From positions 35,865 through 99,864 of the IMG/VR virus record IMGVR_UViG_3300027816_000081: a stretch of 64,000 nucleotides of DNA. One strand, given 5' to 3'. Numbering within the stretch: the first letter of the stretch is position 1; each line of letters begins with the position of its first letter. This document shows, piece by piece, positions 4,601 to 58,552 of the stretch. A program made the translations under genes and the position numbers. This DNA is from a virus. A model generated the notes under the pieces. It was given only the letters and a program-made list of their open reading frames with translations, was not told the DNA's origin and did not search any database.

Positions 4601-7600
4601 AACGAATGTCGGGAATGCGCTAGTTGCACTTGAAGTATTAGTCAACAAACTGCTTGCAGAAGCAGCATTTGCAACAGTTCCGGTTACGTTTGCACCAGGA
4701 ATATTACTTAGATTGGTAGCATTTCCTGAGAAAATATTAGCAGTAATTGTACCTGATGTAACTGTTATGTTTCCGGCGTTAATGTTTCCAGAAACAATCA
4801 ATGATGATATCGTACCAAGACTTGTGATATTTGGCTGTGCTGCTGTTGTTAAAGTACCAGTTAGTAAACTTGCACCGATTGTACCTGCGTTAGCGTATAC
4901 GTTTCCAAAAGTTGCAGTGTTTACAACTGTTAGTCCACCGCCTACACTAAGATTCCCAGTATTTTTGTTGAAGGTTAAGTTCGCATTACCTGCGTAAGTT
5001 GAGCCGCCATCATTGAAAATAACTTGTGTGTTAGCACCTTGTGCAGGAACTAATGTAGCGGTATCCCATGTTAGACTGCCTGAACCATTCGTTCTTAAGA
5101 AAGCACCGTTGGACCCGCCTGTAATAATTACGTTACTGTTGGGGCCTAGATTGCTCACACCAACTACGTTAAGACCAGTTAATGTACCCAAACTCGTTAC
5201 ATTAGGCTGCGCCGCTGTTGCTAGCGTACCGGTTACCAGTGTAGCAGAAATATTTCCTGCCGACAAATTACCTGTTACGTTAGCAGTGCCATTGATATTT
5301 GCACCAGTACCGGTTACGACTACAACGTTAGCATTTCCGGCGGAACTGATTCTCACATTGCTGTTAGCGTCAACTGTTACGTTTGAGTTACCGTTGACAA
5401 TGAAACTACCTGCACTAACTGCGATGTTAGTCAATAGACCACCGTCACCCTGGAAGAAGTTTGCAACTGCAAGATTGCCTAAGTTTGCATTTCCTGATGA
5501 TAGATTTCCAGAAACAGTCAATGAAGACAGTGTACCAACACTCGTAATGTTTGGTTGCGCTGCTGTAGTTACTGTACCTGCGGTAGTAGCTGCACCAGCA
5601 GTAGCAGCATTCAAGTTAGCAACTTGTGTAGTACTTGTTACTACTAGCGGAGCTGTACCAGTGGCAACATTTGATATTAGTTGAGGCGCAGTAACGTTAG
5701 CAGTTGCAAGAACTCGTGCTGTGCCCAAATTACCAACGTTAGCATTACCTGTTGCATTGAGTGTTCCTGCAATATTTGCACCGGTCCCGGTTACGACTAC
5801 AATGTTAGCATTACCGGCGGCGCTGATATTGACATTGCCATTTGCAGCAGGAATATTAACATTGCTGTTTCCGTTTGCCAAAGCACCTATGAAATTACCC
5901 GACGTAGTGTTTCCACTCACACTTAAACTGGTCAATGTGCCAACACTAGTAATGTTGGGCTGAGCGGCAGTTGTTACTGTACCTGCTGTGGTAGCACTCG
6001 TTGCTGTTGTAGCTGAGTTGGCAGTACCATAGAAATTACCAATGAAGAAATTAGCATTTACAGCATTTCCTAAGTTAGCATTTCCTGATGAGATATTTCC
6101 ACTAACAGACAGCGAAGTGAGAGTACCGACACTCGTAATATTAGGTTGAGAAGAAGTTGTTAACGTCCCACCTAACAATAGAGCACCGATTGTACCTGAG
6201 TTAGCATACATATTGCCAGCAGTTACATTACCCGTTACCGCAAGAGAAGTTAAAGTACCAACGCTTGTGATATTAGGTTGCGCTGCTGTTGTTACTGTGC
6301 CTGCTGTAGTTGCAGTAGTTGCACTAGGCACAGTGCCAGTCACGTTGGCGCCAGCTAGATTAGTAAGTCCTGCGCCATTACCAGTAAAGATTCCGGTATT
6401 TGCAGTGAATGCGACTGCGGTTACAGTTCCGTTTACACCAAGTGATGTTAGCGTGCCAACACTAGTGATGTTAGGCTGTGATGCAGTTGTCACAGTACCA
6501 GCAGTGCCCGCGGTAGCAGCATTCAAGTTTGCAACTTGAGTAGTTGATGTAACTACTAGTGGTGCAGTACCAGTTGCAATATTACTGATTAACTGCGTGC
6601 CTGAGATGTTTCCAGTAGCAATAACTCTGCCTGTACCTAAATTAGCAACATTAGCATTACCGGTTGCGTTTAACGTACCTGCTACGTTGACACCTGTACC
6701 AGTCATTACTACGACATTAGCATTTCCTGCAATGTCAAAATTGATGTTTCCGTTAGCAGCAGGAATAGCAATGTCTGAGTTGCCATTAGCAAGATTACCT
6801 ACAAAATTAGCAGCGGTGACATTACCCGTAACTGATAGACTTGTCAACGTGCCTACTGAGGTAATGTTTGGTTGTGCAGCGGTTGTTACGGTGCCGGCAG
6901 TAGTTGCACTTGTTGCTGCACCAGACAGAGCACCAACAAATGTAGTTGCAGTAATAGAGGCGTTACCTAAGTTCGCACTAATACCTGTGTTGATTACTGC
7001 ACTTGAGTTTCCATTCGCACTTGAGGTAGTGAATGTCGGATATACTGTTGTTGCAGTTGAGGTGTTCTGTAGAAGTGCGCTTGCATTTGTTGCTGCGCCT
7101 GCTGTGGCAGCATTCAAGTTTGCAACTTGTGTGGTTGAGTTGACAACAAGAGGAGCAGTACCAGTTGCAACGTTTGAGATTAATTGGGGAGCAGTGACAT
7201 TGGCAGTAGCTAATACTTGTGCAGTTCCCAAATTACCAACGTTAGCGTTACTTGTTACGCTTAATGCACCGGTGGTAGTTAAGTTGCCACCTGTGATATT
7301 TCCAGTTACGTTAGCGGTGCCTGTTGCAACAATTGATGTAGTTCCCAAATTACCAACGTTAGCGTTACCTGTAGCATTTAATGTACCAGTAATGTTAGCT
7401 CCGGTTGCAGTAACGTTCATAGTAGCGTTACTTCCGATTACTATGTTGAGGTTTCCGCCGGAGACAGGGATGTTGGCATAGCTAGTGCCATTCAATATTC
7501 TTGTATTTGCAACTGCACTTACGTTGGTAAGATTACTTCCATCGCCGTACAAGAAATTAGCATTTACTATATTAGCATTGATGTTGCCGGCAACATTAGC

Positions 7601-8200
7601 AGTTGCAGCGGTAATTAGTGCAGTAGCATTAATATTTCCTGCATTGACATTTGCTGTAATGTTAGCATTGGCAGTAACATTCAAGTTACCAGTTACGTTT
7701 GCATTTGCACCTACTAGTATATTGTTGGTAATATTAGCATTGTTGGCATTAACATTAGCAGTAGTAGCTATGTTTCCTGTAAAGCTAGCGGTATTACCGT
7801 TGATTTGTAGATTAACATTGACGGTATTAGCGGTAAGAGTGTTTCCTATAGTGATATTTGAAACACCGGTGACATTTGCCGGCAAGTTAATAAAGAACGG
7901 AACTGAGCCGTTAGTAATAAAGGCTAGTGGGCCGGGACTAGCGGGTGAGCCAGTAGAAAGATCAAGAGTAGAACTTTCAATTCTGACTTGAGCGATGTTA
8001 GCACTTACAACAACATTTCCAGTAGGCGAGTTAACGGTGATACCTGCACCTGCGGTTCTATTAACCGAGATAACTGCCTGATCTTGAAGACCTGAAAATA
8101 ATTCGGTAAAATTCTGTTGAACTTTGTCAAATGCTGTTCTGATTGCATCTGCATTTGGATCGTCAGGAAAACTACCAAAGTCAATATTGCGTTGTGCCAT
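1694..8200 (-). CDS. Giant repeat-rich tail fibre protein (2168 aa)
   Basis: The N-terminus (MAQRNIDFGSFPDDPNADAI) is typical of long fibre proteins of T4-like environmental phages. The body is a low-complexity beta-type repeat array. I count 14 copies of AAQPNITSVGTLTSL-like units separated by VSGN/VTGN...GN stretches that differ in length. The last ~130 residues form a distinct globular domain (ATYADLAERYVADEAY...GGENEV...GRVPCKV) shared with the fibre at 29157-32216. A frame extension to GTG 8212 exists, but ATG 8200 fits the family N-terminus and has GGGTGA upstream. A late promoter lies at 8224-8231. Likely an extended host-recognition fibre. The terminal domain could be a chaperone or capping domain; that is inference. 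Confidence 0.85.
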   Translation of the reverse strand: MAQRNIDFGSFPDDPNADAIRTAFDKVQQNFTELFSGLQDQAVISVNRTAGAGITVNSPTGNVVVSANIAQVRIESSTLDLSTGSPASPGPLAFITNGSVPFFINLPANVTGVSNITIGNTLTANTVNVNLQINGNTASFTGNIATTANVNANNANITNNILVGANANVTGNLNVTANANITANVNAGNINATALITAATANVAGNINANIVNANFLYGDGSNLTNVSAVANTRILNGTSYANIPVSGGNLNIVIGSNATMNVTATGANITGTLNATGNANVGNLGTTSIVATGTANVTGNITGGNLTTTGALSVTSNANVGNLGTAQVLATANVTAPQLISNVATGTAPLVVNSTTQVANLNAATAGAATNASALLQNTSTATTVYPTFTTSSANGNSSAVINTGISANLGNASITATTFVGALSGAATSATTAGTVTTAAQPNITSVGTLTSLSVTGNVTAANFVGNLANGNSDIAIPAANGNINFDIAGNANVVVMTGTGVNVAGTLNATGNANVANLGTGRVIATGNISGTQLISNIATGTAPLVVTSTTQVANLNAATAGTAGTVTTASQPNITSVGTLTSLGVNGTVTAVAFTANTGIFTGNGAGLTNLAGANVTGTVPSATTATTAGTVTTAAQPNITSVGTLTSLAVTGNVTAGNMYANSGTIGALLLGGTLTTSSQPNITSVGTLTSLSVSGNISSGNANLGNAVNANFFIGNFYGTANSATTATSATTAGTVTTAAQPNITSVGTLTSLSVSGNTTSGNFIGALANGNSNVNIPAANGNVNISAAGNANIVVVTGTGANIAGTLNATGNANVGNLGTARVLATANVTAPQLISNVATGTAPLVVTSTTQVANLNAATAGAATTAGTVTTAAQPNITSVGTLSSLTVSGNLSSGNANLGNLAVANFFQGDGGLLTNIAVSAGSFIVNGNSNVTVDANSNVRISSAGNANVVVVTGTGANINGTANVTGNLSAGNISATLVTGTLATAAQPNVTSLGTLTGLNVVGVSNLGPNSNVIITGGSNGAFLRTNGSGSLTWDTATLVPAQGANTQVIFNDGGSTYAGNANLTFNKNTGNLSVGGGLTVVNTATFGNVYANAGTIGASLLTGTLTTAAQPNITSLGTISSLIVSGNINAGNITVTSGTITANIFSGNATNLSNIPGANVTGTVANAASASSLLTNTSSATSAFPTFVTSASNGWSQQVVNSGISANLANASITATTFVGSLSGTASTATTAGTVTTAAQPNITSLGTITSLIVSGNINAGNITVTSGTITANVFSGNATSLSNIPGANVTGTVASATAATNASALLQNTSAATTVYPTFSTSSANGNSSAVINTAISANLANASITATTFVGSLSGTATSATTATTAGTVTTAAQPNITSVGTLTSLAVTGNVTAGNVYANAGTIGASLLTGTLTTAAQPNITSVGTLTSASVTGNVTAGNVYANSGTIGASLLTGTLTTAAQPNITSVGTLTSLSVTGNVTVGNLLGVFANGNSNVSIPAANGNVNISAAGNANVLVVAGSGVRTNSPLSINVGLGSGYFLDIATGTGQLGIRTAGTGSGIYNDLNSPNTIFRTQVVDNVSVSIATIATGSATSGPRISLAPNNTAMMNVTTTGANVFGTLNATGNANVGNLGTAQVLATANITAPQLISNVATGTAPLVVTSTTQVANLNVANAGFATSAGSATTAGTVTTAAQPNITSVGTLTSLDVSGNITAANITANTGVFTGNGSGLSALNASNITTGTLAQTRLANSSLTVNGTAISLGGSGTVTANTTQTITFNNGGTGDASGTTFNGGTARTISHNSIGASPLAGSASLTTTGTVTSGTWNSAIGSSATFAAGLSGANLASITGANVTGTVANATFATSAGSATTAGTVTTAAQPNITSVGTLTTLAVTGTTGFASTDSSGTGSTTKIIRAVNGTQDIGLIPRAGAGSYNNLTGADDAMIVYANSSAQGNANLTIAPWSTASGGIRIVTASNVTSSINLTATTTVLSGALQTANITTGANTTAGTVTGNWTLTAGSRWQATYADLAERYVADEAYEPGTVVVLGGENEVTIENVADSHKVAGVVTTNPAYIMNALLEGENVVEVALIGRVPCKVMGPVNKGDLLTTATIPGYAYANNAASAGRIVGKSLENFNGELGIVEIMVGKT

Positions 8201-8223
8201 GTTAATTATCACCCATTATATTG

Positions 8224-19430: not shown

Positions 19431-19459
19431 ACTATAACATAAGAATATTAGATTGTCAA
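19431..19459 (-). promoter_or_regulatory. Early sigma-70 promoter, predicted leaderless (ATG 19424)
   Basis: TTGACA (19454-19459), 17 bp, TATAGT (19431-19436), then 6 nt to ATG 19424. The A of ATG falls at the expected +1. Confidence 0.85.
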
Positions 19460-28734: not shown

Positions 28735-29157
28735 TTAAGGAGCCCAGGGTCTACCTTCAAGTAGTCCCAATGGGTGTGGGTTAGGAGTAGAAACGTTTCC
28801 TATATACTGTGAGGGCAATTCTGTAATATCGTAAACATTATATGGATTGCCATCTTGTGTTCTGTCTAGTGTTGCCAAATCTAATTTAGCAAGTTGTCTG
28901 TCCTGTAATGTAGGGAGTCTGCCTATTAAATTACCAGTGCCTAAAACAGAACCATCTATGATATTATAACTAACAAGAGTGTTGGCATCATCTAACACTT
29001 CTTCATTAAAATTGACATTATACCAAGTTGAATCAGTACCGGTCGCAGTGTCAATGGTAGATTTTAATGTGGCAACGGTAATACCATCACTGACTGTATA
29101 CTCATCAAACTGTCCCGCGTTCAATAAGCTTTGAACGGTGATAGTAATAGTTGCCAT
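28735..29157 (-). CDS. Fibre-associated protein (140 aa), unknown
   Basis: The start overlaps the stop of the 1019 aa fibre gene (TAATG), so it is translated by coupling. N-terminal strands (MATITITVQSLLNAGQFDEYTV) resemble a ubiquitin-like beta-grasp pattern with a following helix (TVATLKSTIDTATG). The C-terminal part is Pro/Asn-rich. Position directly behind a fibre suggests an assembly partner or adaptor, as T4 gp38/gp57 genes sit near fibre genes. No motif proves that. Confidence 0.55.
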   Translation of the reverse strand: MATITITVQSLLNAGQFDEYTVSDGITVATLKSTIDTATGTDSTWYNVNFNEEVLDDANTLVSYNIIDGSVLGTGNLIGRLPTLQDRQLAKLDLATLDRTQDGNPYNVYDITELPSQYIGNVSTPNPHPLGLLEGRPWAP

Positions 29158-32100
29158 TATAGTCTACCTACTGCGACCTCAATTATGCCCTCATGACCAT
29201 CAAAGTCTTGTAATGCTTTACCAATAACTGTACCGATTGACGGGGACATATTTGATTTTGCGAAGCCACCGCCGGCTGAAACAAGCATATCACCCTTAGT
29301 AATCTTTCCGCGAACTTTACATGGTACACGACCCTGTAGCGCAATTGCAGTTAATAATCCTGGACATGTAGAGTTCATTACATAGGCTGGGTTGGTAGAT
29401 ACGACACCGGCTACTCTGTTAGTTTCGTCTTCTGCTAGAGAGACTTCCTTTTCGCCCCCGAACATTAATACGGTACCCGGAGTATAAATGTCATCGGCTT
29501 CATAGTATTCTGCAAGGTCAGCGTAGGTAGCTTGCAGTCTGGAACCACTAGTCAGTGTCCAGTTACCTGTAATTGTGCCGGCTGTAGTGTTTGCACCAGC
29601 AGTGATGTTCGTTGTAGTTAGCGCGCCGCTTACATTTAATGAGGTGAGTGTACCAACACTCGTGATATTAGGTTGGGCTGCTGTTGTCACAGTACCGGCA
29701 GTAGTTGCACTAGTGGCACTTGATACAGTACCCGTTACATTAGCGCCCGCAACCAATCCATTGAAAGTAACATTACTTGCTGTTTGTGTGATGGAGCCAA
29801 CCGGGGTGCTTGCAGCATTGAAGAACGTCATTAGGTTAGTAACGTCAACTGTTGGCTGCAGGGCCAAACCATATAATGTGCCGCCGCCGGTAAATCTGAT
29901 ACCCACTGCACTACTTGCGCCACCAATTTGAGTATAACCTCCTATTTCAAGTGCATTGCTAGTAGAAGTCATACTAGTTTTACCTGATACAGTAAGACTT
30001 GATAGCGTACCGGTTGAGGTAATGTTAGGCTGTGCTGCCGTTGTTACTGTGCCTGCGGTAGTTGCTGAGCTTACTGTACCGGTAACATTTGCGCCGGCAA
30101 TTGCACTCAAGCCACTACCATTACCAGTGAATACACCAGTATTTGCAGTAATGTTTGCAGCAGTGATATTACCACTAACACCCAATGATGTTAATGTACC
30201 AACGCTTGTGATGTTTGGCTGTGCTGCTGTTGTTACTGTACCAGCAGTTGTTGCAGCGCCTGACAGTGAACCAACGAATGTAGTAGAAGTGACACTAGAT
30301 AGGCCATCAACAGTTGTAACGGTAGAACCTAACGTCAACGCCGTGCTACCTAAAGTTACACTTGCATTCGCTAGTCTTGCTTGAGCAAGAGTTCCTGTTG
30401 AAATATTACTTGCATTCAACGCAGATAGACCACTACCATTGCCCGTAAACACACCTGTATTAGCAGTAAATGCAGGGGCAGTTATTGTACCGGCTACGTT
30501 TAAAGCCGCACTGACATTGGTGTTAGTAGCGTTTAAGAAAATAGTAGCAGTATTTGATACTGATTGTATTCTAATACCAGTGTTTCCGCTTGCCCAAGGA
30601 GCAATAGTTAAGTTTGCATTTCCTATAGCAGACGAGTTGCCAAAAGTAATTAATGTATCGTCTGCTGCGGTCAAGGTATTGTATGATCCGGCACCCGCTC
30701 TAGGAATAAGTGCAATATCCTGAGTACCATTTACCGCTCTTATTATCTTAGTAATTGAAGCAGCGGCTGAGGAATCTGTAGACACTACACCAGTAGTACC
30801 TGAAACAGCAAGTGTAGTTAACGTACCAACACTAGTAATATTAGGTTGTGCTGCTGTAGTGAGTGTGCCGGCTAATAGTGTTGCTGATAGCGCACCAGTT
30901 GCAGCATTAAAAGATAAGTTTGCGTTGGCAGCTAATGCTCTGTTTCCAGTAGAACTACTATTCACAAATACTGGGAAGAAAGTTCCTGTAGTTTGGGCAG
31001 TTACTACTCCAAAATCAGACACGTTGGCATATGAAACATTTAAGTTTGCTACACGAGTAGTAGAAGTGACTGTTAGTGGTGCTGTGCCAGTAGCAATGTT
31101 TGATATCATCTGAGTTGAAGTTACAATACCTGACGCATTCAAGTTTCCAACGTTAGCATTGCCTACAATGCCTAGTACCTTAGGACTTGCTCCAAAGTTC
31201 CAAGTAAAGTCGGCATCGCCATCTAACAAATTACTGTTGTTAAATTGTACTGTAGTGTTTGAACCTGCTGCACCGCTGCCGCCTCCGCCCGATGATACGG
31301 ATGCAATTGCGCGGCCTCCGGTAGCATATACATTAGCTCCGGTCAACGTAGCCGTAGCTAGCACTTTAATGTTACCTGCTACACCATTTGCTAATAATTC
31401 TTCTGATACAGTAATCGTTGTTCCGCTAGGCTTAGCTTTAATGTAGTATGAAACATTATTTTCTAGTCCACTAGTACTCAAATCTCCCAAGAAAAGAACT
31501 TCTTGGTTTAGATTGAATACTGCTGAGTTACCTATTGTAACTCTATTAGTTGACGCAGATGTGGAAGTTGCAGTAGTATAAGAATATGTGTTATTAGTAA
31601 ATGCAATAGAATTTACCGGGGTAGTTAAGCTAGGATCACTGTACAGTGAGAAAGTATTAGACGTTAATACATTAGCATAATAAGTATTACCATTTAGGTC
31701 AGTCATTCCTGCTGCATTTGTGATTGTGATTTCTGCGCCGTCAGTAAAGAAGTTGTCCTGCGTGGTAGTGACTACAGCTGGATTAGCAGTAGTAACGTTC
31801 TGAATAAAAGCGATAACAGTTGATTTAGGTGTCCAAGACAAATTACCCAAACCATCAGTCTCAAGAACATAACCGATTGCGCCGCCCGTAATCTTCACAT
31901 TAGATGCATCGCCTAATGTGATCAAGCCGCCGGCATCGCCGCCGCGATTGACCCAATTGTTTCCGTCAAATGTTAAGACTTGCCCATCAGCAACCGTAAC
32001 GTTACTGATATTTAAATTACCAACCGAACCATTGAGTTGGCTGTAATTAATCTGAGAGTATGAAGTCAATACTTCAATATTTTCGTTGGGGGTGGTTTTA

Positions 32101-32216
32101 CCGATAAAGAGACGCTTAGCGTCACTTGCCCAACCAAACTCTGCTTCGTCTAGTTGAGGTAAGTCAACTAGATTACCGGAACGTTGCTGAATCTTTGAAA
32201 TTTGGATAATTGCCAT
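29157..32216 (-). CDS. Second repeat tail fibre protein (1019 aa)
   Basis: The N-terminal region (MAIIQISKIQQRSGNLVDLPQLDEAEFGWASDAKRLFIGK) is a distinct attachment domain. The middle contains four AAQPNITSVGT-like repeats. A segment TKIIRAVNGTQDIALIPRAG and the last ~130 residues (ATYADLAEYYEADDIYTPGTV...VAGVVSTNPAY) closely match the giant fibre at 1694-8200, so the two are C-terminal paralogues with different N-termini. Its late promoter runs into a perfect hairpin directly before the ATG. Likely a fibre or baseplate-attached adhesin. Confidence 0.85.
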   Translation of the reverse strand: MAIIQISKIQQRSGNLVDLPQLDEAEFGWASDAKRLFIGKTTPNENIEVLTSYSQINYSQLNGSVGNLNISNVTVADGQVLTFDGNNWVNRGGDAGGLITLGDASNVKITGGAIGYVLETDGLGNLSWTPKSTVIAFIQNVTTANPAVVTTTQDNFFTDGAEITITNAAGMTDLNGNTYYANVLTSNTFSLYSDPSLTTPVNSIAFTNNTYSYTTATSTSASTNRVTIGNSAVFNLNQEVLFLGDLSTSGLENNVSYYIKAKPSGTTITVSEELLANGVAGNIKVLATATLTGANVYATGGRAIASVSSGGGGSGAAGSNTTVQFNNSNLLDGDADFTWNFGASPKVLGIVGNANVGNLNASGIVTSTQMISNIATGTAPLTVTSTTRVANLNVSYANVSDFGVVTAQTTGTFFPVFVNSSSTGNRALAANANLSFNAATGALSATLLAGTLTTAAQPNITSVGTLTTLAVSGTTGVVSTDSSAAASITKIIRAVNGTQDIALIPRAGAGSYNTLTAADDTLITFGNSSAIGNANLTIAPWASGNTGIRIQSVSNTATIFLNATNTNVSAALNVAGTITAPAFTANTGVFTGNGSGLSALNASNISTGTLAQARLANASVTLGSTALTLGSTVTTVDGLSSVTSTTFVGSLSGAATTAGTVTTAAQPNITSVGTLTSLGVSGNITAANITANTGVFTGNGSGLSAIAGANVTGTVSSATTAGTVTTAAQPNITSTGTLSSLTVSGKTSMTSTSNALEIGGYTQIGGASSAVGIRFTGGGTLYGLALQPTVDVTNLMTFFNAASTPVGSITQTASNVTFNGLVAGANVTGTVSSATSATTAGTVTTAAQPNITSVGTLTSLNVSGALTTTNITAGANTTAGTITGNWTLTSGSRLQATYADLAEYYEADDIYTPGTVLMFGGEKEVSLAEDETNRVAGVVSTNPAYVMNSTCPGLLTAIALQGRVPCKVRGKITKGDMLVSAGGGFAKSNMSPSIGTVIGKALQDFDGHEGIIEVAVGRL

Positions 32217-38783: not shown

Positions 38784-40181
38784 TTAGTTTTTCTTGAGAG
38801 AATTTAACAGTGATTTTAGTTTTGCCCCTTCAGTATTTGATATGACTTTTGATTCTGTAGTAGGTAGGTTGTTAACAGTTTCGCTTACTGAACTCGTAGT
38901 TTTGATTTGATTCATTAATTGTGCTGGAGTCTGCGTATGAGTCCTGCCTTCTTCTGGATCCTCATCAGTAATACGCATAGTATCAATATTATATTCCAAG
39001 TCAATCTTTTGACCAACACCAGTAGAACTACGAGATTTCATACACTGAATTTGATACTTGCCTCGCTCACGCATAGAACGTGAAGTGAAGATACCAAACA
39101 CATAGTCCGCAGTATTGATCTTAGAGATACCACCTGCAATGTGACTGTGATCAAACTCAATTTCTTCAACAGCCGAACGATTCAACTGCGAGGCTGTGAT
39201 CATAAGAATGCCAAGCTCCTTCGCTAGATTGCGAAGTTCTTCCGACACATACTTGTCTTTAATGAACTGGTCATTTGGATTGACCTTGACACTGACAGGC
39301 ATAACAAGATCAAGATAGTCAATCATAACAAAGTCAATCTTGATGCCTGTCTGAATCTGCACTTCCTTGATATATGCACGAATAGCGTTGACGTTGCTTT
39401 GTGCAGGCAATGCCTTAACACGATACTGCCCCATCTTCTTGCCGTTCATCTTAACACGCAATGCAGTGTCTTCCATATTCTTACGAATATCCTTCGTACT
39501 CATACTAGTAAGCATGGCGTCAGTACGAAGCGAAGTCAATTCTTCTGAAAGTTCAAGGGTCACATAAACACCACTTAGACCCTGTGCAAGCCAGTTAAGT
39601 GCGATGTTCATCATAACAAGAGACTTACCAGAACCAGAGCCGCCGGCGAAGATGTTAAGTTCACCACGACTCATACCACCATACATAAGTCTGTCAAGCT
39701 GGGGCCAGCCAGTAGACACCTGACCACCCTGATTGAAGTACTTGTTCAATCGTTCTTGAGGATCAGCAAAATAATCTGTACCCATATCACGCTGCAAACT
39801 GATTTGCACTGCGTCCTTGACTAGCTTTTCAACCGGATCAAACTCGCCCTTCTCAAGCAAGTCTGCTGCCTTGAGAATAGCACGTTCAAGTTCCTGACGC
39901 TTAGTGAATGCTTCAAATTCTTCTAGAAACCAATCATAGTGTCCCTGATCAAGTTCAGGGATATGATCAATCGTTTCGCTAGTAGTTGCCTTGATTTGCG
40001 TAGGGTCAGGCATGATGGAGTACTTAGTAGTGTGCTCCACAATGAATTCTGCAACTGGACGTAATCTACGATCAAAGTTTTGAGGATTCATGATGTTCAT
40101 AACACGAGTATACAACTCAGCGTTAGTAACCATCATTCGTAAAAAGAGTTCCTGAACATCAGTATTATATTCTTTTAGCAA
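38784..40181 (-). CDS. 41: Replicative DNA helicase gp41 (DnaB-type)
   Basis: 465 aa, the length of T4 gp41. A helical N-terminal domain (1-125) is followed by a RecA-type motor: Walker A GGSGSGKS at 180-187, MIDYLDLVM near 286-294 as Walker B, and the ASQLNRSAVEEIEFDHSHIAGG region near 329-350. It is the hexameric 5'-3' helicase that pairs with primase gp61. Start is TTG 40181 with GAGGAAG upstream, overlapping the end of the primase gene by 17 nt, so helicase and primase are translated together. Confidence 0.95.
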   Translation of the reverse strand: MLKEYNTDVQELFLRMMVTNAELYTRVMNIMNPQNFDRRLRPVAEFIVEHTTKYSIMPDPTQIKATTSETIDHIPELDQGHYDWFLEEFEAFTKRQELERAILKAADLLEKGEFDPVEKLVKDAVQISLQRDMGTDYFADPQERLNKYFNQGGQVSTGWPQLDRLMYGGMSRGELNIFAGGSGSGKSLVMMNIALNWLAQGLSGVYVTLELSEELTSLRTDAMLTSMSTKDIRKNMEDTALRVKMNGKKMGQYRVKALPAQSNVNAIRAYIKEVQIQTGIKIDFVMIDYLDLVMPVSVKVNPNDQFIKDKYVSEELRNLAKELGILMITASQLNRSAVEEIEFDHSHIAGGISKINTADYVFGIFTSRSMRERGKYQIQCMKSRSSTGVGQKIDLEYNIDTMRITDEDPEEGRTHTQTPAQLMNQIKTTSSVSETVNNLPTTESKVISNTEGAKLKSLLNSLKKN

Positions 40182-41142
40182 TTTTCTTCCTCATCATTTC
40201 CAATTTGATTTTACTGTTAGTAGCTGATTGTAAGATACTTAGTAGTGTAGGGACTTTCCCGTACTTTCTTATAGCATCATTGGTATCCTTTATTTCCTCA
40301 CTCCAGTTTGGAATAGATACGTGAAATCCTAATTCTAATGCTCTGTCGCATACCTGCATCCCTGTCTTATCTAAGTCGGGAACAACTATAATTTTACGAT
40401 TTAGTCTACGCAATAATTCTGCTTGCTCATCGCTGATAGTGTCGTGTGTCAATGCACATCCATTGATACTCAGTGCGTCAAAAATACCTTCAACGACAAT
40501 ACACACTTCATATTCGGGCTTTTGTAAATCTAAGCCAAATACATATCCTAGCTGCTGCTCCTTGATATACTTAGGGATGCGATTGTCTAGATATCTGCTG
40601 ATATGACCTACGATCTTACCATCCATAGTATATGGAATAATAATTCTGTTGCTATTTCTTCCTTCTTCGTCAGGCGTAATCATGAAGGGATAATCTTTTA
40701 CAGATAATCCTCTATCATGAATGTAGTCTGCAAACTTTTTATGCTCTATATTATTCTCATCAATCAATATAGCATTTTCGGGAAGTTCAGTTTCCTTAAA
40801 TACAACTTTAAGTTTCTTGCGCTTGACTTTAACGTAGTCAATCAAATCCTTTTGCTGCAAGCTCTCAAAGTTGTATTTTGTAATTAATTCGTCTGATACT
40901 CCACAATACCCTAACAGTAGACGTAGATTTTTACTGAGTGACTTACCCAATGTGAATCTGCATTTGAAATCGCAGTTAAAGCAGTGATAGGACCAGTTGT
41001 CATCTTCGTCAAACTTGATGCCGCCGCGCATACGTCTGTCGGGTTTGTGACCGCGATTATGGCAGCAGACCGCATTGAAGCTTACCCAGCCCTTTGCAGT
41101 TGTTTTCTTTCTACCAGGTATGATGGTCAGTATATCAAACAC
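40165..41142 (-). CDS. 61: DNA primase gp61
   Basis: 325 aa. An N-terminal zinc-binding motif is visible: CCHNRGH near 26-32 and CFNCDFKC near 54-61. The TOPRIM core has IVVEGIFDAL (215-224, catalytic Glu218) and VPDLDKTG (254-261, DxD). gp61 makes RNA primers at the fork with gp41. The start is GTG 41142; there is no clear Shine-Dalgarno, but the N-terminal FDILTIIPGRKK fits the family start. Next to gp41 as expected for a primosome pair. Confidence 0.92.
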   Translation of the reverse strand: MFDILTIIPGRKKTTAKGWVSFNAVCCHNRGHKPDRRMRGGIKFDEDDNWSYHCFNCDFKCRFTLGKSLSKNLRLLLGYCGVSDELITKYNFESLQQKDLIDYVKVKRKKLKVVFKETELPENAILIDENNIEHKKFADYIHDRGLSVKDYPFMITPDEEGRNSNRIIIPYTMDGKIVGHISRYLDNRIPKYIKEQQLGYVFGLDLQKPEYEVCIVVEGIFDALSINGCALTHDTISDEQAELLRRLNRKIIVVPDLDKTGMQVCDRALELGFHVSIPNWSEEIKDTNDAIRKYGKVPTLLSILQSATNSKIKLEMMRKKIAKRI

Positions 41143-42667: not shown

Positions 42668-43183
42668 TTAGTTCTTTCTAGCTTTCTTCTTTAGTTCTTT
42701 CTTTCTTTTATCCTTAGCCATCTTGTAAGTCAAGTCACCTACTCGTTGGTCAAACGTTACCCCAAACAAATGATCAAACTCGTGCAAGTACACACGGCTT
42801 TCTAATCCAGTCAATTCACGCTCAACAACCTCACCGGTTACTGTCTGATACTGCACATTGCAAGACCCTGCGCGTTTAACTTTCATGAACAAGTCAGGGA
42901 AGCTCAAGCATCCTTCCATATCAACAATTCTGTCTTCGGATAGTGACACAATCTTTGGATTGATACAAGCAACTAGTTTTTGAAAGTTGCCCATGATAAA
43001 GATTCTTTTCTGGATCCCAACTTGAGGGGCAGCAAGACCAACTCCCCCATTTTCAATCATGAACTTGAACATTGCCTTGATAAGTTCCTCAGGATTGCCG
43101 TCAACTTCAAAATCCCATTCAGTTGAAGTATCAAGTAATTGCGGATGGCCTTCAGGCAATAGTTCTAAGTTATATTCAGTCAT
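42668..43183 (-). CDS. def: Peptide deformylase
   Basis: 171 aa with all three family motifs: GVGLAAPQVG (47-56), EGCLS (90-94) and HEFDH (134-138), which bind the catalytic metal. It removes the formyl group from N-terminal methionine. Phage deformylases are known from cyanophages and other marine phages and are thought to speed maturation of phage proteins. The start overlaps the upstream gene by 8 nt. Basic C-terminus (KMAKDKRKKELKKKARKN) follows the catalytic core. Confidence 0.95.
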   Translation of the reverse strand: MTEYNLELLPEGHPQLLDTSTEWDFEVDGNPEELIKAMFKFMIENGGVGLAAPQVGIQKRIFIMGNFQKLVACINPKIVSLSEDRIVDMEGCLSFPDLFMKVKRAGSCNVQYQTVTGEVVERELTGLESRVYLHEFDHLFGVTFDQRVGDLTYKMAKDKRKKELKKKARKN

Positions 43184-43522: not shown

Positions 43523-44095
43523 TTAATTCTTCTCTTGTAACAGGTTCATATGCACAACTACAAGCTGGGCGTAAGCAATGGCGTGACTTTTCTTGAAGCT
43601 ATAGCCATCACTATCCTTATCCCATACAGTCTTTGCGACTTCTTTCCATGTCAACCCTTGCAAGTGTTTTTTAGCAGGACGCATTACAGCAAGAAACATT
43701 GCCAGTCTAGGAATGCTATCAATTGGTTCGGGCATACGTTGCATGATGTTGAACGAGTTATTAAGGTGAATCAATTGCTCTACTGTAACACGATTTTTTA
43801 GCATAGTCCAATCAGGATCTTGCATCAACTTGACTAAATGCAACTCATCCCTGACATTTTCATAGACATGGACATTCAATAAATCTAGTTTAAAGTATCC
43901 GCGTTCTTCTGCTTCCGTGTAATCTAGCGAACACATATCATTTTCTGGATCGTAAGGAATATCAGTGATATATATACCACTAGGATGTTTACGCATAGGA
44001 GTGACATTACGCATTGCCGCAGGCGTATGAGCGATCAACTTTAATAGTTGTTCACGATCACCTACGTCAATGTCAATGTCACTGTCAATTCTCAT
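43523..44095 (-). CDS. Mini DnaE-like protein (C-family polymerase palm remnant or minimal core)
   Basis: 190 aa carrying, in the right order, motifs of bacterial polymerase III alpha. SDIDIDVGDREQLL (5-18) matches DnaE PDFDVDF..KRDQV with D8/D10 at the catalytic pair. H37-P-S-G40 matches the HxGG region. GYFKLDLL (66-73) matches GLVKFDFL with K69 and D71 at the lysine and third aspartate. AVMRP (136-140) and SFKKSHAIAYA (166-176) match LYRP and FNKSHAAAYA. PHP, thumb, OB and the N-terminal RGS phosphate-binding motif are absent. The start overlaps the DexA-like stop (ATGA). Function unknown; a reduced polymerase, a polymerase decoy or a nucleotide-binding relic are all possible. Confidence 0.75.
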   Translation of the reverse strand: MRIDSDIDIDVGDREQLLKLIAHTPAAMRNVTPMRKHPSGIYITDIPYDPENDMCSLDYTEAEERGYFKLDLLNVHVYENVRDELHLVKLMQDPDWTMLKNRVTVEQLIHLNNSFNIMQRMPEPIDSIPRLAMFLAVMRPAKKHLQGLTWKEVAKTVWDKDSDGYSFKKSHAIAYAQLVVVHMNLLQEKN

Positions 44096-44649
44096 CGGAT
44101 GTGAGTCAATCCAGCCTTAATCAGAATCTTGTATGCATCTTGAATAACACGAGCCTGATGAATTGCGTCTTCAACAGCTTTGTGAGTTGTCTTTGTACCA
44201 TACTTAGGATCCTTAAGGCTTACGCCAGCAAGATCATAAATCGTTCGGCAATCACGAATGTTCCAAAACTGCCATGGGAACTGCATACCAAGATCACGGA
44301 ATGCACTTTCTGCTACTGCGATATCAAAGATCGAACCGTTAGCCCAAACCTTGTCACAGTTCCAGCAGAATTTGTAAAGCTTTTCCATTGCTTCCCGATA
44401 ACTAATACGATCACGATCACCCATAGCTTCTTCAATAGCGTCAGGGCTTTGCTGACCCCACCAATCCATTGTAGCATCACTAATCGTGCGATTATAAATT
44501 TCTGTTTGTTCTTCCATTGTAGGACGAAGATCAAGAGTTTCAATCATGCCCATACCTTTCGGATCAAACGCAACTGCACCAATCGTTAGAATAACGGTCG
44601 ACGGCGCAGTGTCAAGCGTTTCCATGTCCAGCATAATGTGGCGGGCCAT
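44092..44649 (-). CDS. dexA: DEDD-type 3'-5' exonuclease, DexA-like
   Basis: 185 aa with the DEDDh layout: DMET (8-11, D8 and E10), SIFDI (106-110, D109), and THKAVED (155-161, H156 and D161). DexA of T4 is a 3'-5' exonuclease. The length is shorter than T4 DexA (227 aa). A perfect early promoter and AAAGG lie upstream. Its stop overlaps the start of the DnaE-like gene, so an exonuclease and a polymerase-like palm are made together. Confidence 0.85.
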   Translation of the reverse strand: MARHIMLDMETLDTAPSTVILTIGAVAFDPKGMGMIETLDLRPTMEEQTEIYNRTISDATMDWWGQQSPDAIEEAMGDRDRISYREAMEKLYKFCWNCDKVWANGSIFDIAVAESAFRDLGMQFPWQFWNIRDCRTIYDLAGVSLKDPKYGTKTTHKAVEDAIHQARVIQDAYKILIKAGLTHIR

Positions 44650-44680: not shown

Positions 44681-44709
44681 AATATACAGGATAAGTTGTC
44701 TGTTGTCAA
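44681..44709 (-). promoter_or_regulatory. Early sigma-70 promoter
   Basis: TTGACA (44704-44709), 17 bp, TATATT (44681-44686), 32 nt before ATG 44649. It drives DexA-DnaE-like-deformylase operon and is divergent from the HNH gene. Confidence 0.88.
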
Positions 44710-44786: not shown

Positions 44787-45317
44787 ATGACTATTTACAC
44801 CAGCAAGAACTACCGCAAAATATACGAGCAACATTACGGTCCTATTCCCAAGGATAGTGACGGTAGAACGTATGAGATACATCATATTGACGGTGATAGA
44901 AATAACAACGATCCTAGTAATCTATTATGTATATCAATCCAAGAACATTACGATATTCATTATCAACAAGGTGATTGGGCTGCGTGTCTTGTGATGGCCG
45001 GGAGAATGAAAATATCTCCGCAACTAAAGTCAGAATTATCACGCAAAGCACAATTAAACCTCGTAGAGCAAGGTATTCATCCTTCCTCCCGCCGAACATC
45101 ATCTGACTTTACTCCAGAATGGAGAGCTAACATTTCTGCTGCAAAGAAAGGCAAGCAAACTTGGAACAAAGGGATACTGAGAACTGAGGAAGAAAAAACT
45201 AAGATGAGGGAAGGACATTCTAAGCGTGAAAGAATAGAATGTCCTCACTGTAAAAGAACAATAGACAAACCTAACTTTACTAGGTACCACGGAGATAAAT
45301 GTAATTCTAAGTGTTAG
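44787..45317 (+). CDS. HNH homing endonuclease-like gene
   Basis: 176 aa. HNH core YEIHHIDGDRNNNDPSNLL (29-47) and CISIQEHYDIHYQ (48-60) match homing HNH enzymes. A DNA-binding NUMOD-like region follows (AAKKGKQTWNKG near 118-129), and the C-terminus holds a possible zinc knuckle CPHC...YHGDKC (151-172). It stands on the plus strand between minus-strand operons with its own late promoter and Shine-Dalgarno, which fits a selfish free-standing endonuclease. It overlaps the convergent dioxygenase gene by 11 nt. Confidence 0.85.
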   Translation: MTIYTSKNYRKIYEQHYGPIPKDSDGRTYEIHHIDGDRNNNDPSNLLCISIQEHYDIHYQQGDWAACLVMAGRMKISPQLKSELSRKAQLNLVEQGIHPSSRRTSSDFTPEWRANISAAKKGKQTWNKGILRTEEEKTKMREGHSKRERIECPHCKRTIDKPNFTRYHGDKCNSKC

Positions 45318-46026
45318 AACTCCAAATGTTGTCTATCTTTTTCACATCTTCCATTATATCACCGTTTAGGTAATTTAGCAAGAGCATAGGGCGAGGTTCG
45401 GGAAAATAATTGGGCATACTGCTGTGCAATAGTCTACAGTTATACATCAATACAGAACCTTTGGGCATGTATCTTTGCTCGTGGAAGTCCCAAAAATATT
45501 TGTTATATGCCCCGTTATAACACAAGTCAATATCCCAATCAGGTTCATGACTGTTGGGTACAAAGCCTGTTGCACCCATTTCAGGTGTAGTATCTTGTAA
45601 TGACACAATACACTGTACTCCTAGTAATCTAGGGTCCATATTCCATTGTTTGAACCTGTGCGGCGTGTCTACGTGCGGATTAACTAGATTAGTATTTCCG
45701 TTAATCGTAATAATGTCGCTCGTATACCAAACAGCATTGTCAAGTTCTTTATTGATACGAGTGATTAGAAAATCATTGATTAGTTTGACTTCCCACCAAT
45801 CCATAACCGTTTGGCTCCACCAATAACTAATATCGGTTAGCTTACTAATGTTCTCCCGTTCTTCGTAACGTTTACCTGAACTGGTTGCACGGACCGGATA
45901 TAACGTATCCAGTTTGCTATTAATGCCATCAATTAGTTCATCAGGTATCACGTTCTCAAAGAACAGATATCCTTCACCCTCAGTTAAATCATTCACATAA
46001 TTTCCAATGCGTGTATGTCTTTTCAT
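45307..46026 (-). CDS. 2-oxoglutarate/Fe(II) dioxygenase, phytanoyl-CoA hydroxylase type
   Basis: 239 aa from ATG 46026. The iron site reads H118-V-D120 (NPHVDTPHRF) with distal H201, and R212 lies 11 residues later for 2-oxoglutarate, the PhyH family layout. Hydrophobic strands around (GVQCIVSLQDTTPEMGATGFVPNSH) form the jelly-roll core. The substrate is unknown. 2OG oxygenases are frequent in marine T4-like phages and have been suggested to modify nucleic acid, protein or metabolites. The start overlaps the upstream gene by 38 nt. Confidence 0.85.
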   Translation of the reverse strand: MKRHTRIGNYVNDLTEGEGYLFFENVIPDELIDGINSKLDTLYPVRATSSGKRYEERENISKLTDISYWWSQTVMDWWEVKLINDFLITRINKELDNAVWYTSDIITINGNTNLVNPHVDTPHRFKQWNMDPRLLGVQCIVSLQDTTPEMGATGFVPNSHEPDWDIDLCYNGAYNKYFWDFHEQRYMPKGSVLMYNCRLLHSSMPNYFPEPRPMLLLNYLNGDIMEDVKKIDNIWSSNT

Positions 46027-46288
46027 CAAGAATGATATAGCCTGATACCTTGAACCATGGACCGAGATAGCGAGGTTCTTTATAATATTTGTAGCACCAT
46101 TCTTCTAATTCACTGGTTCCCCTAGCACGATGGTCTGCGTTGCGAATAGGTATACGAATAAATTGCCGTTCTTCCCACGCACCATTAACTGCAACTTGCT
46201 TTTTAATCTTCTGTTCTACGGGAACAGCCTCAATAATATCATAGTCAATATAGTCGGATGCTCTTAACCCCATGTTAGTTTGAACCAT
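45989..46288 (-). CDS. Tandem small protein, FKLRW-type family, member 1 (99 aa)
   Basis: The C-terminal half carries SELEEWCYKYYKE, then a strand ending YIILDEKTYTHWKLCE. The pattern E(I/L)xEW(C/V), a strand, (D/E)E and W(F)KL recurs in the next two genes. N-terminal part (DYDIIEAVPVEQKIKKQ) is extra. GAGAG precedes ATG 46288. Similar short proteins ending in FKLRW recur in T4-like environmental phages, without known function. Confidence 0.6.
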   Translation of the reverse strand: MVQTNMGLRASDYIDYDIIEAVPVEQKIKKQVAVNGAWEERQFIRIPIRNADHRARGTSELEEWCYKYYKEPRYLGPWFKVSGYIILDEKTYTHWKLCE

Positions 46289-49307: not shown

Positions 49308-50765
49308 TTAATAATTTAATTTTTCCAAAGTGAAGGGATAATTAGCCTCTTTGTAATAAGCTTTGCGTTGCGTCAAGTGACGCTTTGCAAACTTACAGGA
49401 GCTTGTAATGTCCCAAATCTGTACGAAATCTTTATCTTCTGCTTTACGAATGCCGCGTCCTATTGACTGAATAACGCGGACAAACGATTTACCAGGCTCA
49501 ATAAGAACCAAATTAAAGATGCGAGGAATATTAATACCGACAGCCGCAACGCCATACGTAGCGACAATAATCTTGTCATCACTTGTCGCAACTTCGTCAT
49601 ATTCTTCCTTTCTTTCAGTGAGACTTGTAGAGCCATTGACAAACACTGCATTAGAACCTAATCTACTTACAATCTCTTTACCGGCATTAACTCTGTCCAC
49701 GAGAACAAGAGTATTGCCAGTCTCATTAACCTTCTCAATAAGTCCTGCAATAGTATCTAGTCTATTATCATCCTCTAGTAGATGCTTTAATTCACTTTGA
49801 TAATTAGTAAACTCTACATTATCCTTAAGCTGCACGATGTTCACATGACATTGTGCAAGAACACCCTTCTCTTGCAATTCACTTGCTGACAACTGCCCAA
49901 TGACAGGACCAAGTGAGACAAGCAATGATACCCGGTCCATTTCAGCCTTAGGAATAGTTCCTGTCAGTCCCCAACGAATCGGAATGTTACTGAACACGCC
50001 CGTAAGCATGGTCTTGAGAACATCAGCCTTAGCCATATGGACCTCATCAACTATGACACAAGCAATGTCTTCAAAGAAAAACTCATCAAGATTTTCTTCT
50101 CCTGCATCGGCTGTGTTCTTAAACAGATTGTTTAATGATTGCCATGTACAGATTGTATGCGTCTTGCCATAGTCTTTACGATCACCAAAGTAAACGCCTA
50201 CGTCAAGTCCTAGATTGATGTAGTCTGCTTCTGTCTGTACGACTAGGCTCTTGTTAGGGACGATTACGAGACTGCGGCCATACTTCTCTACACTCTTAGA
50301 TAGAGCAGCAGTCATAAGTGTCTTACCCGCACCCGTAGCGACTTCCTGCAAGCTCTGAGGATTGGCCAAGAAGTTGTTGATGATTTGAACCTGATAGTCA
50401 CGAAGCATGATAGGCTGTCCAGCCATTGGATGCTTGTCTGGCCATACCTTATCACTAAAGCTATCTTCACGTATTAGATCAAACTCTAGCTTACCGTGCT
50501 GTTCCCTGTTGTCTATCAGTTCAATGTCATAATTCTTATCGTATAGATATGTGATAACATCTTCCAGTAGGTTCAGATAAGTGCTACCTGCAAGACTGAA
50601 ATAACTGATCTTGCCATTCCAACGGCCCAAACGAACCGAAGGCAAATATCTTGCCCCCGGCTTTTCGTACTCAAACTTCTTCATCAATGCTCTTCGGTCT
50701 GACAATTCAAGACCTTCAATTTTCACATTGACTTCATCCTTAATGATGATTTTTGCTTCGTTCAT
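49308..50765 (-). CDS. uvsW: UvsW-type DNA/RNA helicase
   Basis: 485 aa superfamily 2 helicase: ATGAGKT Walker A (143-149), DEVH Walker B (240-243), GLTGTIP near 267-273, and QSIGRGIRK motif VI near 438-446. T4 UvsW remodels forks and R-loops and turns off origin replication late in infection. The N-terminal 100 residues are the UvsW-type DNA-binding domain (KPGARYLPSVRLGRWNGKIS). It overlaps the upstream 332 aa gene by 4 nt (ATGA), so the two are coupled. Confidence 0.93.
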   Translation of the reverse strand: MNEAKIIIKDEVNVKIEGLELSDRRALMKKFEYEKPGARYLPSVRLGRWNGKISYFSLAGSTYLNLLEDVITYLYDKNYDIELIDNREQHGKLEFDLIREDSFSDKVWPDKHPMAGQPIMLRDYQVQIINNFLANPQSLQEVATGAGKTLMTAALSKSVEKYGRSLVIVPNKSLVVQTEADYINLGLDVGVYFGDRKDYGKTHTICTWQSLNNLFKNTADAGEENLDEFFFEDIACVIVDEVHMAKADVLKTMLTGVFSNIPIRWGLTGTIPKAEMDRVSLLVSLGPVIGQLSASELQEKGVLAQCHVNIVQLKDNVEFTNYQSELKHLLEDDNRLDTIAGLIEKVNETGNTLVLVDRVNAGKEIVSRLGSNAVFVNGSTSLTERKEEYDEVATSDDKIIVATYGVAAVGINIPRIFNLVLIEPGKSFVRVIQSIGRGIRKAEDKDFVQIWDITSSCKFAKRHLTQRKAYYKEANYPFTLEKLNY

Positions 50766-55836: not shown

Positions 55837-56198
55837 TCTGCTAACTCCTTAAACTCAACTTTCAATTCATTCATTACTTCTTGAAAATCATTTTCAGGGA
55901 ATGCCATACGACCCAAGTTAAACATTCTTCTACATAGCCGAACATTTTCTTTACTGTAAGGTCCGGCATTGTCAAGACGTTCGGGACTAATAGCGAATGG
56001 ATGATGTTTAATTTTATTGTAGTTTGGGTCTAAAGGAAGACCTGACCAATAACACTTTCCACCTTGTTCACTGAACATATCTACTAGATCCTGAGGGGTT
56101 ATAGTGACCTCTTTTACTGGACGACCAGAGACTCGGTTCCTTCCCATACTATATGCAATGCCGGATAGCATCTTCTTTGCCAAACTAAGTTCCATCAT
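55833..56198 (-). CDS. HNH-like small protein (121 aa)
   Basis: Residues ~44-95 (GGKCYWSGLPLDPN, then FAISPERLDNAGPYSKENVRLCRRMFNLGR) follow the layout of HNH-type nucleases: C-x2-(S/C)G, a D/R..LDN element and YSKENVRLC with the closing Cys. The usual second His is replaced (ISPERLD), so it may be a degenerate or non-classical His-Me finger. It is directly coupled to uvsX (ATGATG overlap), unusual for a homing enzyme, so a recombination role is possible. Confidence 0.6.
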   Translation of the reverse strand: MMELSLAKKMLSGIAYSMGRNRVSGRPVKEVTITPQDLVDMFSEQGGKCYWSGLPLDPNYNKIKHHPFAISPERLDNAGPYSKENVRLCRRMFNLGRMAFPENDFQEVMNELKVEFKELAE

Positions 56199-57262
56199 TC
56201 TGCGCTGTCCTCTTCTTCAATCAGAGTAGCAGCAGTCTTGGCAGTCTTAGCTTCAAACTCAGCCATGATTGTATCCAAACAACCATCATCGTTTGCTTCC
56301 CAAGCCTTACGGAACTTCTTGATGATAGAACCATCAAGCTTAGTATAAACAAGACTGTTGCCTTCCTTACTTACCATGCCCATTGATTCTGCCATGTCAA
56401 GCATACCCGAATAAGGATTCATACCAGTTTCGTATGGAATCTTAATCTGCACGGATTCGAAGGGCTTTGCATAGCGGGTCTTCATGACCTTACAAGCACT
56501 ACGAATACCACGAACGTCACTGACCTTGTTACCTGATTCGTCTTCCTTAAGCTTAAGCTTACGCATAGCTACCACGATAGACGAAGCATAGATGAAGCCC
56601 TGACCACCTGAAATCTTATCGTCAGGGTCAAACATATCCTGCGATGCATAAGTGTGGTTAGTAGCAACAAGACCGACGTTGTTTGAACCAAACATGTTTA
56701 CGCAGTTACGAACAAGTGCAGTCAATGCTTTGGGCTTACGACCCATGTCACCCTTCATGTCACCGGCTTCAAACTGATTAACATCAGTCGGAGTTAGCAA
56801 CATGCCAAGCGAGTCAATGACGAACAGAACCTTAGGCTTGTCTTCTTCATTCATGGCTTTGTAGCCCTTCATGAATTCGCTGATAGTCTTAGCAACATCA
56901 TCAATCATTGCCATGTTCAACTTGAGGAGCTTATCCTCAGCAGTATCTACACCAAGAGCGTGAAGCCAGGCTTCGTCAAGTGCGTTTTCGCTGTCAATCA
57001 GAACAACATAGATACCCTGCTCTTGAGCATGGCGTACTAGGTTGCCCGAACAGATGTAGCTCTTACCTGATCCAGACTCTCCGGCAAAGACAGTAACTTT
57101 ACCAAGAGGAATCCCCTTATTAAAATCTCCACTAATTCTATAATTGAGTGCATAATTACCTGTACTTACCCAATCGGTTGGGTCGTTAAATCCGATACTA
57201 AGGCCGTCAATCGCCTTAGTAATGTCCTTGCGGAACTTACTAATATCAAATGGCTTTGCCAC
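56195..57262 (-). CDS. uvsX: UvsX, RecA-like recombinase
   Basis: 355 aa. Walker A GESGSGKS at 61-68, VLFVIDSLGML near 144-154 as Walker B, and SGGQGFIYASSIVVAMRKLKLKE near 212-234 (loop L2 and core). UvsX forms filaments on ssDNA with gp32 and UvsY for strand exchange and recombination-dependent replication. Start is GTG 57262 with AGGAG. It lies directly below the gp32 gene and the BPSL0761-like gene. Confidence 0.95.
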   Translation of the reverse strand: MAKPFDISKFRKDITKAIDGLSIGFNDPTDWVSTGNYALNYRISGDFNKGIPLGKVTVFAGESGSGKSYICSGNLVRHAQEQGIYVVLIDSENALDEAWLHALGVDTAEDKLLKLNMAMIDDVAKTISEFMKGYKAMNEEDKPKVLFVIDSLGMLLTPTDVNQFEAGDMKGDMGRKPKALTALVRNCVNMFGSNNVGLVATNHTYASQDMFDPDDKISGGQGFIYASSIVVAMRKLKLKEDESGNKVSDVRGIRSACKVMKTRYAKPFESVQIKIPYETGMNPYSGMLDMAESMGMVSKEGNSLVYTKLDGSIIKKFRKAWEANDDGCLDTIMAEFEAKTAKTAATLIEEEDSAE

Positions 57263-57553: not shown

Positions 57554-58552
57554 TTACTTAGACTGACGGGCGCGGATCATTGCAAGAATGTCCTGAGCCT
57601 TGTCGCTTGATGTGTCCGACTTAGGAACAACTACTGGATCAGTTGCAGCCGGTGCTGCATCTTCGTCCCAAGGAACATCATTGTTGACTGCTGGAGCAGT
57701 TTGGGTAGTGCTGGTTTCAGCAGTCACCGCTGGTTCGTCCTGTGCTGCTCCAGCTGGGGCCTCAAGTCCATAAGGACGATAGTAAGCGCCCCACTTATCA
57801 GGATCATATGCACGACCATCAACAGATGCTTCAAACATTTCCTTGATAACACGAAGTTCTGCTTCGCTTGGCTTCTTCGGTAAGAAGTCCTTAAGATTGA
57901 AAAGACCATGTGCTTCAATAGCAGCAAGTTCTGCCTCAGTCAACGGGGATTCCTTACGGGCCCAGTTAGAAGTTGAGTAGTCAGCATAACCACCCTTTGA
58001 AGTCTTCTTGATGTTGAAGTCAAGACCACGAGCGTAATCAGTTGGCAATTCTTCCAACTCAGGATCCATCAATGATGCCTTGATTACAGTCTGAATCTGA
58101 GGACTGATTACGAAGCGACGAATAGGATTAGCCGGAGTTGCATCATCACCGAGAGGGTTTGCACGAACGAAGCCCTGATAGAGATAAGAACGCTTCTTCC
58201 AATACTTGTTAGCGAGGTCCTTAAGAGTGTCATCCTTGTACCAAGGACGAACTTCTGCGAGAACGGGGCAGTTGTCGCCATACATTTCTACGCAAGGAAC
58301 CTGAACGATTACCTGCTTAGCATCTGGCTGACCCTTAATGCCATTGAACGGAAGCTTAATGATCTGACGTTCAACCCAGAAAAAGTCGTTGGTGTTGTCG
58401 GCGTCAGGAAGGAAACGCACTGTTGCAGTTGCGCCTTCCGAAATATTCCAATGTGGGTAAATTGCATTATCAGACTGAGTACGTGGACCGTTGTTCTGAT
58501 TCTTGTTTTCTTGGGCTGCCAAACGAGCCCGGATTTCTGCTAGACTTGCCAT
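57554..58552 (-). CDS. 32: Single-stranded DNA-binding protein gp32
   Basis: 332 aa (T4 gp32 is 301). The N-terminus MASLAEIRARLAAQENKN is the basic LAST-type region for cooperative binding. The core has WNISEGATATVRFLPD (35-50), VQVPCVEMYGDNCPVL near 86-101 and KYWKKRSYLYQGFVR near 117-131. The C-terminus carries Ala/Pro/Asp-rich tail then SDKAQDILAMIRARQSK. It coats ssDNA in replication and recombination. A long leader has an early and a late promoter. The usual gp32 zinc Cys set is not complete here. Confidence 0.93.
   Translation of the reverse strand: MASLAEIRARLAAQENKNQNNGPRTQSDNAIYPHWNISEGATATVRFLPDADNTNDFFWVERQIIKLPFNGIKGQPDAKQVIVQVPCVEMYGDNCPVLAEVRPWYKDDTLKDLANKYWKKRSYLYQGFVRANPLGDDATPANPIRRFVISPQIQTVIKASLMDPELEELPTDYARGLDFNIKKTSKGGYADYSTSNWARKESPLTEAELAAIEAHGLFNLKDFLPKKPSEAELRVIKEMFEASVDGRAYDPDKWGAYYRPYGLEAPAGAAQDEPAVTAETSTTQTAPAVNNDVPWDEDAAPAATDPVVVPKSDTSSDKAQDILAMIRARQSK

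Follow-up and report, generated by a model that had tools for sequence, protein, structure and literature searches.

A short palm-like protein of an environmental virus is very probably the C-terminal unit of the split DNA polymerase III alpha of jumbo phages

Can a viral protein about one sixth the length of DnaE belong to a C-family polymerase, and if so, where is the rest of the enzyme? The question is raised by a 190-residue open reading frame (ORF) in a 64,000-nucleotide stretch of viral DNA (IMG/VR record IMGVR_UViG_3300027816_000081, positions 35,865 to 99,864), which we call the window and which starts at C1:35865 of contig G000. The original prediction, made from the letters of the window, had recognised the motifs of a C-family palm in this protein, had noted that its start overlaps the stop of a DexA-type exonuclease gene behind a near-perfect promoter, and had proposed either a two-part machine or a decoy aimed at the host replicase. 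We find that the protein, hereafter the C-unit, is very probably the C-terminal unit of the split DNA polymerase III alpha subunit (Pol III alpha) of jumbo phages. The gene of its N-terminal partner, the N-unit, lies 47 kilobases (kb) away on the same phage contig, outside the window.

Both the ORF and its motifs are present as predicted. S5-DIDID-V11, H37-x-x-G40, K69-x-D71, R139-P140 and F167-KKSHAIAYA follow one another in this order, and the DxD and third aspartate of a C-family palm are among them. The C-unit matches phrog_11778, annotated 'DNA polymerase', at E=3.9e-54, while full-length phage Pol III families match weakly. Relatives occur in 90 of 50,697 phage records, mostly those of jumbo phages, with hosts in Escherichia, Pseudomonas, Klebsiella, Erwinia, Salmonella, Agrobacterium, Sinorhizobium and Vibrio, and homologues were found in at least 592 environmental stretches. 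Fifteen positions do not vary in any of 139 distinct homologues, namely D6, D8, D10, H37, G40, K69, D71, Y78, R139 and P140, together with K142, W158, F167, H171 and Y175; D8, D10 and D71 are the residues whose conservation had been named as a check on the prediction. Measured against close relatives, the ratio of nonsynonymous to synonymous substitution rates (dN/dS) is 0.04-0.10. Given the phrog_11778 match, the residue identity in 139/139 sequences and the low dN/dS, the motifs are not a chance resemblance.

The second check named at the outset, a structural match to the C-family palm, gave the same answer. The AlphaFold model of the C-unit (predicted local distance difference test, pLDDT, 92.3; predicted template modelling score, pTM, 0.80) retrieved Pol III alpha in a fold search of the PDB. 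The top 11 matches were all bacterial Pol III alpha, the best with probability 0.99 and E 0.009, and every other protein stood at a probability of 0.1 or lower; the solved C-family enzymes that the fold matches are those of Taq, M. tuberculosis and E. coli. Searches with the C-unit sequence by itself were silent. Pfam and NCBIfam gave no family assignment, the single sequence retrieved nothing from the PDB except a designed helical repeat at E=0.11, and its profile alone matched no PDB chain. We attribute this silence to the shortness and divergence of what is only one half of an active site, since a profile that joins the two units solved the problem, as described below.

A C-family palm also requires a GRGS loop, located before DIDID. 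This nucleotide-binding motif is absent from the C-unit chain and is carried by the separate N-unit, in which it is invariant across both alignments made (A3 and A4). The N-unit matches PF07733 (E=7.6e-8) and phrog_11127, and its profile finds Pol III alpha in the PDB at E=7e-4, covering residues 381-454 of Taq DnaE up to FERFL. PHP and thumb are not found in the C-unit either, as the chain starts at DIDID and has 26 residues between D10 and H37; Pfam detects a PHP domain in neither unit. The earlier statement that PHP, thumb and RGS are missing thus holds for the C-unit itself, whereas another gene of the contig encodes the part that bears RGS. Because the N-unit on the same contig carries an invariant GRGS, both the missing motif and the one-sixth length of the C-unit are explained.

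The two units meet at a precise point. The C-terminal end of the N-unit, '...GLEIDEFLK', corresponds to 'GLLFERFL' of DnaE, and the start of the C-unit, 'MRIDSDIDID', corresponds to 'PDIDID'. The joined profile matched the PDB at E=1.7e-11. One alignment spanned the junction, with an insertion of two residues, and beyond it KMDFLG, ALYRPGP and FNKSHA came in order, each of these stretches being weak individually. Joining the N-unit to the C-unit also raised the PF07733 score from 32.7 to 42 bits. Judged from these alignments, the N-unit and the C-unit together cover the DnaE palm with next to no gap between them. The proposed two-part machine survives in that the C-unit is the C-family palm piece, its metal site intact, of a two-part system, but its partner is primarily the GRGS-bearing N-unit and not the exonuclease.

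We examined the co-occurrence of the halves in six complete or near-complete reference jumbo phages and six environmental contigs measuring 229 kb or more, all carriers of the C-unit. The N-unit was found alongside the C-unit in 6/6 of the former and 6/6 of the latter, and 12/12 genomes having both halves also encode a family B polymerase that includes an exonuclease domain. The window's record itself encodes the C-unit, the N-unit and a 906-residue family B polymerase frame. Five C-unit contigs gave no N-unit match, all of them no longer than 201 kb, below any reference genome tested. The halves are separated by at least about 29 kb in the genomes examined, and none of 104 phage records has them fused or adjacent. 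A C-family piece beside a B-family polymerase, which the original prediction had thought unexpected, is an already described trait of group 2.2 jumbo phages (PMC7824862).

Each half keeps a characteristic place. In the six references (CBB, XaC1, Vibrio 2.275.O, Paride, Phosso and Atu_ph07) a primase gene, or in some of them an unnamed gene of matching size and place, comes within ~3 kb after the C-unit, and then a DnaB helicase; helicase and RecA-like or single-strand DNA-binding protein (SSB) genes precede it in most of them. The order in the window is SSB, UvsX, UvsW, exonuclease, C-unit, primase and DnaB helicase. After the N-unit, the genomes of CBB, Phosso, Atu_ph07 and Paride and the window's record have a clamp loader or AAA ATPase within ~3 kb, in some cases behind a GroES-like gene; in the window's record the N-unit is followed by a GroES-like gene and then by a gp44-type clamp loader. 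The placement is conserved, with the N-unit near the clamp loader and the C-unit near the primase-helicase. A 114-residue gene downstream of the C-unit is no constant partner, being found in only 4/144 loci. Separately, a peptide deformylase (window 42668-43183(-), PF01327 E=9.1e-39) lies two genes downstream of the C-unit, and a deformylase follows the C-unit in 43/144 loci tested.

What would the two halves do together? Because the catalytic residues are invariant in both, we infer, with some reserve, that they assemble into an active polymerase-type nucleotide-transferring core. The N-unit would supply the GRGS loop holding the nucleotide triphosphate, and the C-unit would supply D8, D10 and D71 holding two Mg2+, the lysine of K-x-D and reduced fingers. 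Bound to each other, the halves would rebuild a nucleotidyltransferase palm that lacks PHP, thumb and every DnaE domain past the fingers, and the complex would transfer nucleotides beside the B-family polymerase, which is likely the main replicase. With one half encoded close to the primase-helicase and its counterpart close to the clamp loader, the enzyme would most likely be a short-range polymerase that acts around the primosome in primer extension, gap filling or repair. A more specific version appears rather unlikely to us: a second short-range replicative polymerase whose halves are made with the primase-helicase and with the clamp loader, whose active site forms only where the two sets meet, and to which the window's clade has added a dedicated, stand-alone DexA-type proofreader from the same transcript.

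Several observations weigh against a split, active polymerase. The fold match of the C-unit is modest (template modelling score, TM, 0.42-0.55; E 0.009), a level that fits a domain of which part resides in a separate chain. On its own, the N-unit gives a poor model (pLDDT 73.8, with the GRGS and C-terminal segments below 50), and a PDB fold search with this model gave no match. No assay, pull-down or complex structure of the split enzyme was found. Lacking a thumb and clamp-binding domains, it would polymerise only weakly, and the invariant residues would also fit a protein that binds nucleotide and metal but does not polymerise. The halves might accordingly assemble and bind metal, nucleotide or DNA yet serve as another nucleotidyltransferase, or as a subunit with a structural or regulatory role in the B-family replisome. 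We entertain this alternative tentatively: it suits a protein with no thumb and no domain past the reduced fingers, in genomes whose B-family polymerase has an exonuclease domain of its own in all 12 cases. It accounts less well for the three catalytic aspartates, the K-x-D lysine and GRGS all being invariant and for the C-family motif order being kept through the fingers, and a purely structural use would not need the aspartate triad.

The neighbouring exonuclease had been proposed as the partner. As predicted, the two genes overlap by 4 nucleotides, with ATGA common to the stop of the exonuclease ORF and the start of the C-unit ORF. The exonuclease matches PF16473 (Rv2179c-like) at E=6.9e-38 over residues 4-170 of 185, and phrog_255. 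Of the 137 loci with enough upstream sequence, 119 have a DexA-type exonuclease before the C-unit; the loci are mutually related and so not independent events. In 82 of the 119 there is a 1-13 nucleotide overlap or similar. The C-unit and this exonuclease might on these grounds form a polymerase-proofreader pair by themselves, a reading we find improbable, since such a neighbour is absent from all six reference jumbo phages and from all the more distant loci (L164-L175), and the missing GRGS is supplied by the N-unit and cannot come from the exonuclease. The pairing is conserved in the close clade only, where the DexA-like exonuclease may have a proofreading role. RaK2-like phages have a DnaQ-type exonuclease in the same cluster instead, a few kb upstream, and six large contigs of the window's clade have no DnaQ-type exonuclease. 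Comparing CBB, XaC1 and Vibrio 2.275.O (L084, L087, L086) with the window's clade, we observed nearly complementary distributions of stand-alone DnaQ-type (PF00929) and DexA-type (PF16473) exonucleases near the replication cluster. A stand-alone DEDD exonuclease near the C-unit cluster is recurrent, not universal.

The promoter placed upstream of both genes is indeed promoter-like, TTGACA-17-TATATT matching at 11/12 positions. Nine sites of that quality occur within the window versus ~2 in simulated sequence. A site of at least 10/12 was found within 110 nucleotides upstream of the exonuclease in 14/91 relatives, compared with 1/91 for an internal control. A promoter before the exonuclease and the C-unit is plausible; it is not a constant of the family. 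Six minus-strand sites match at 11/12 with the exact 17-nucleotide spacing (first hexamers at 19459, 22196, 22991, 44709, 46890 and 49303); they exceed chance and may represent one promoter class of the phage. Directly upstream of the exonuclease promoter region, on the opposite strand, lies an HNH homing-type endonuclease (PF13392, window 44787-45317(+)).

The idea of a decoy or inhibitor of host Pol III found no support. It starts from a small separate protein that resembles host DnaE, and we regard it as highly improbable: the catalytic residues are invariant, the gene sits within the phage replication cluster, the protein is kept across phages of very different hosts together with its own N-terminal half, and it has none of the DnaE parts that contact clamp and tau. 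That the C-unit is a decaying remnant of a captured bacterial dnaE, of which about one sixth is left, is scarcely credible, being already contradicted by the dN/dS of 0.04-0.10, the invariant active site and a second half in every near-complete genome tested. Decoy, remnant and an enzyme formed with the exonuclease alone were each considered and rejected.

Table 1 Features of the C-unit locus and its partner; positions are those of the window unless another coordinate system is given.
Feature	Position	Strand	Support
C-unit: very probable C-terminal part (Mg2+-binding palm and reduced fingers) of split minimal Pol III alpha	43523..44095	-	190 residues, phrog_11778
Codons of residues 4-12, DxDxD metal-site segment (D6, D8, D10)	44060..44086	-	invariant in 139 sequences; joined profile aligns to Pol III alpha DIDID
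Codons K69-L70-D71, third catalytic acidic residue and preceding Lys	43883..43891	-	invariant; aligned to GLLKMDFLG of solved mycobacterial-type DnaE
Codons F167-K-K-S-H-A-I-A-Y-A176, FxKSHAxAYA fingers motif	43568..43597	-	joined-profile alignment and homologue conservation
DexA/Rv2179c-type DEDD 3'-5' exonuclease, 185 residues	44092..44649	-	PF16473, phrog_255
Sigma-70-like promoter match TTGACA-17-TATATT, upstream of exonuclease and C-unit	44681..44709	-	
DnaG-type (Toprim) primase, downstream in C-unit cluster	40165..41142	-	
DnaB-type replicative helicase (gp41-like), downstream in C-unit cluster	38784..40181	-	
UvsW-type helicase, upstream in C-unit replication cluster	49308..50765	-	
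UvsX/RecA-like recombinase of replication cluster	56195..57262	-	
Single-strand DNA-binding protein of replication cluster	57554..58552	-	phrog_1192
N-unit: GRGS-bearing N-terminal partner, 175 residues	contig G000:C1:31534-32061 = L179:11535-12062 (outside window)	-	phrog_11127, PF07733

Elsewhere in the window, a PhyH-type 2-oxoglutarate dioxygenase is encoded at 45307-46029(-) (PF05721 E=6.3e-12; no PHROG match). Two very long low-complexity proteins of 2172 and 1019 residues, encoded at 1694-8212(-) and 29157-32216(-), contain near-repeats such as TAAQPNITSVGTLTSL and end in a similar C-terminal stretch; they are probably tail fibre-like.

Should the halves prove to make an active enzyme, one virus would possess, next to its replicase, an unrelated C-family polymerase of very small size whose active site is divided between two chains. 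Such an enzyme would open to test the view, proposed by Iyer and colleagues in 2021 (PMC7824862), that the fold of the bacterial replicase arose as a small palm lacking PHP, thumb and clamp domains. With its precise junction and clear catalytic residues, the window's pair lends itself directly to co-expression, co-folding and mutant assays.

How does this pair compare with known systems? From a comparison of genomes, Iyer et al. 2021 (PMC7824862) described a minimal Pol III alpha that group 2.2 jumbo phages encode in two pieces. That system and ours (PHROG 11778 and 11127) share the member Atu_ph07, in which we found both halves, and are the same in essentials; the overlapping DexA-type exonuclease of the window's environmental clade is unreported in the part of that paper available. 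We are highly confident in assigning the pair to this split enzyme, on the basis of that text, the common member and all tested features. No later experimental work was found in a literature search that missed most subscription journals and preprints. Phage CBB offers an earlier trace: a 172-residue 'truncated DNA polymerase III alpha', CBB_328, was noted in 2017 (PMC5259590). CBB_328 (gp328) is the N-unit of that phage and gp287 its C-unit, a second half unmentioned in the available part of the 2017 paper. Compared with bacterial DnaE, GRGS, DxD, K-x-D, RP and FxKSHAxAYA come in the same order across the two halves, whereas the phage enzyme is split, has reduced fingers, is without PHP, thumb, clamp-binding, OB and tau-binding domains, and measures ~365 versus ~1,160 residues. 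T4 gp43 represents family B, to which the co-resident polymerase on the window's record belongs and whose palm fold is unrelated. Relative to these systems, what is new here is the exact junction, the active site invariant across both halves and the conserved placement of each half.
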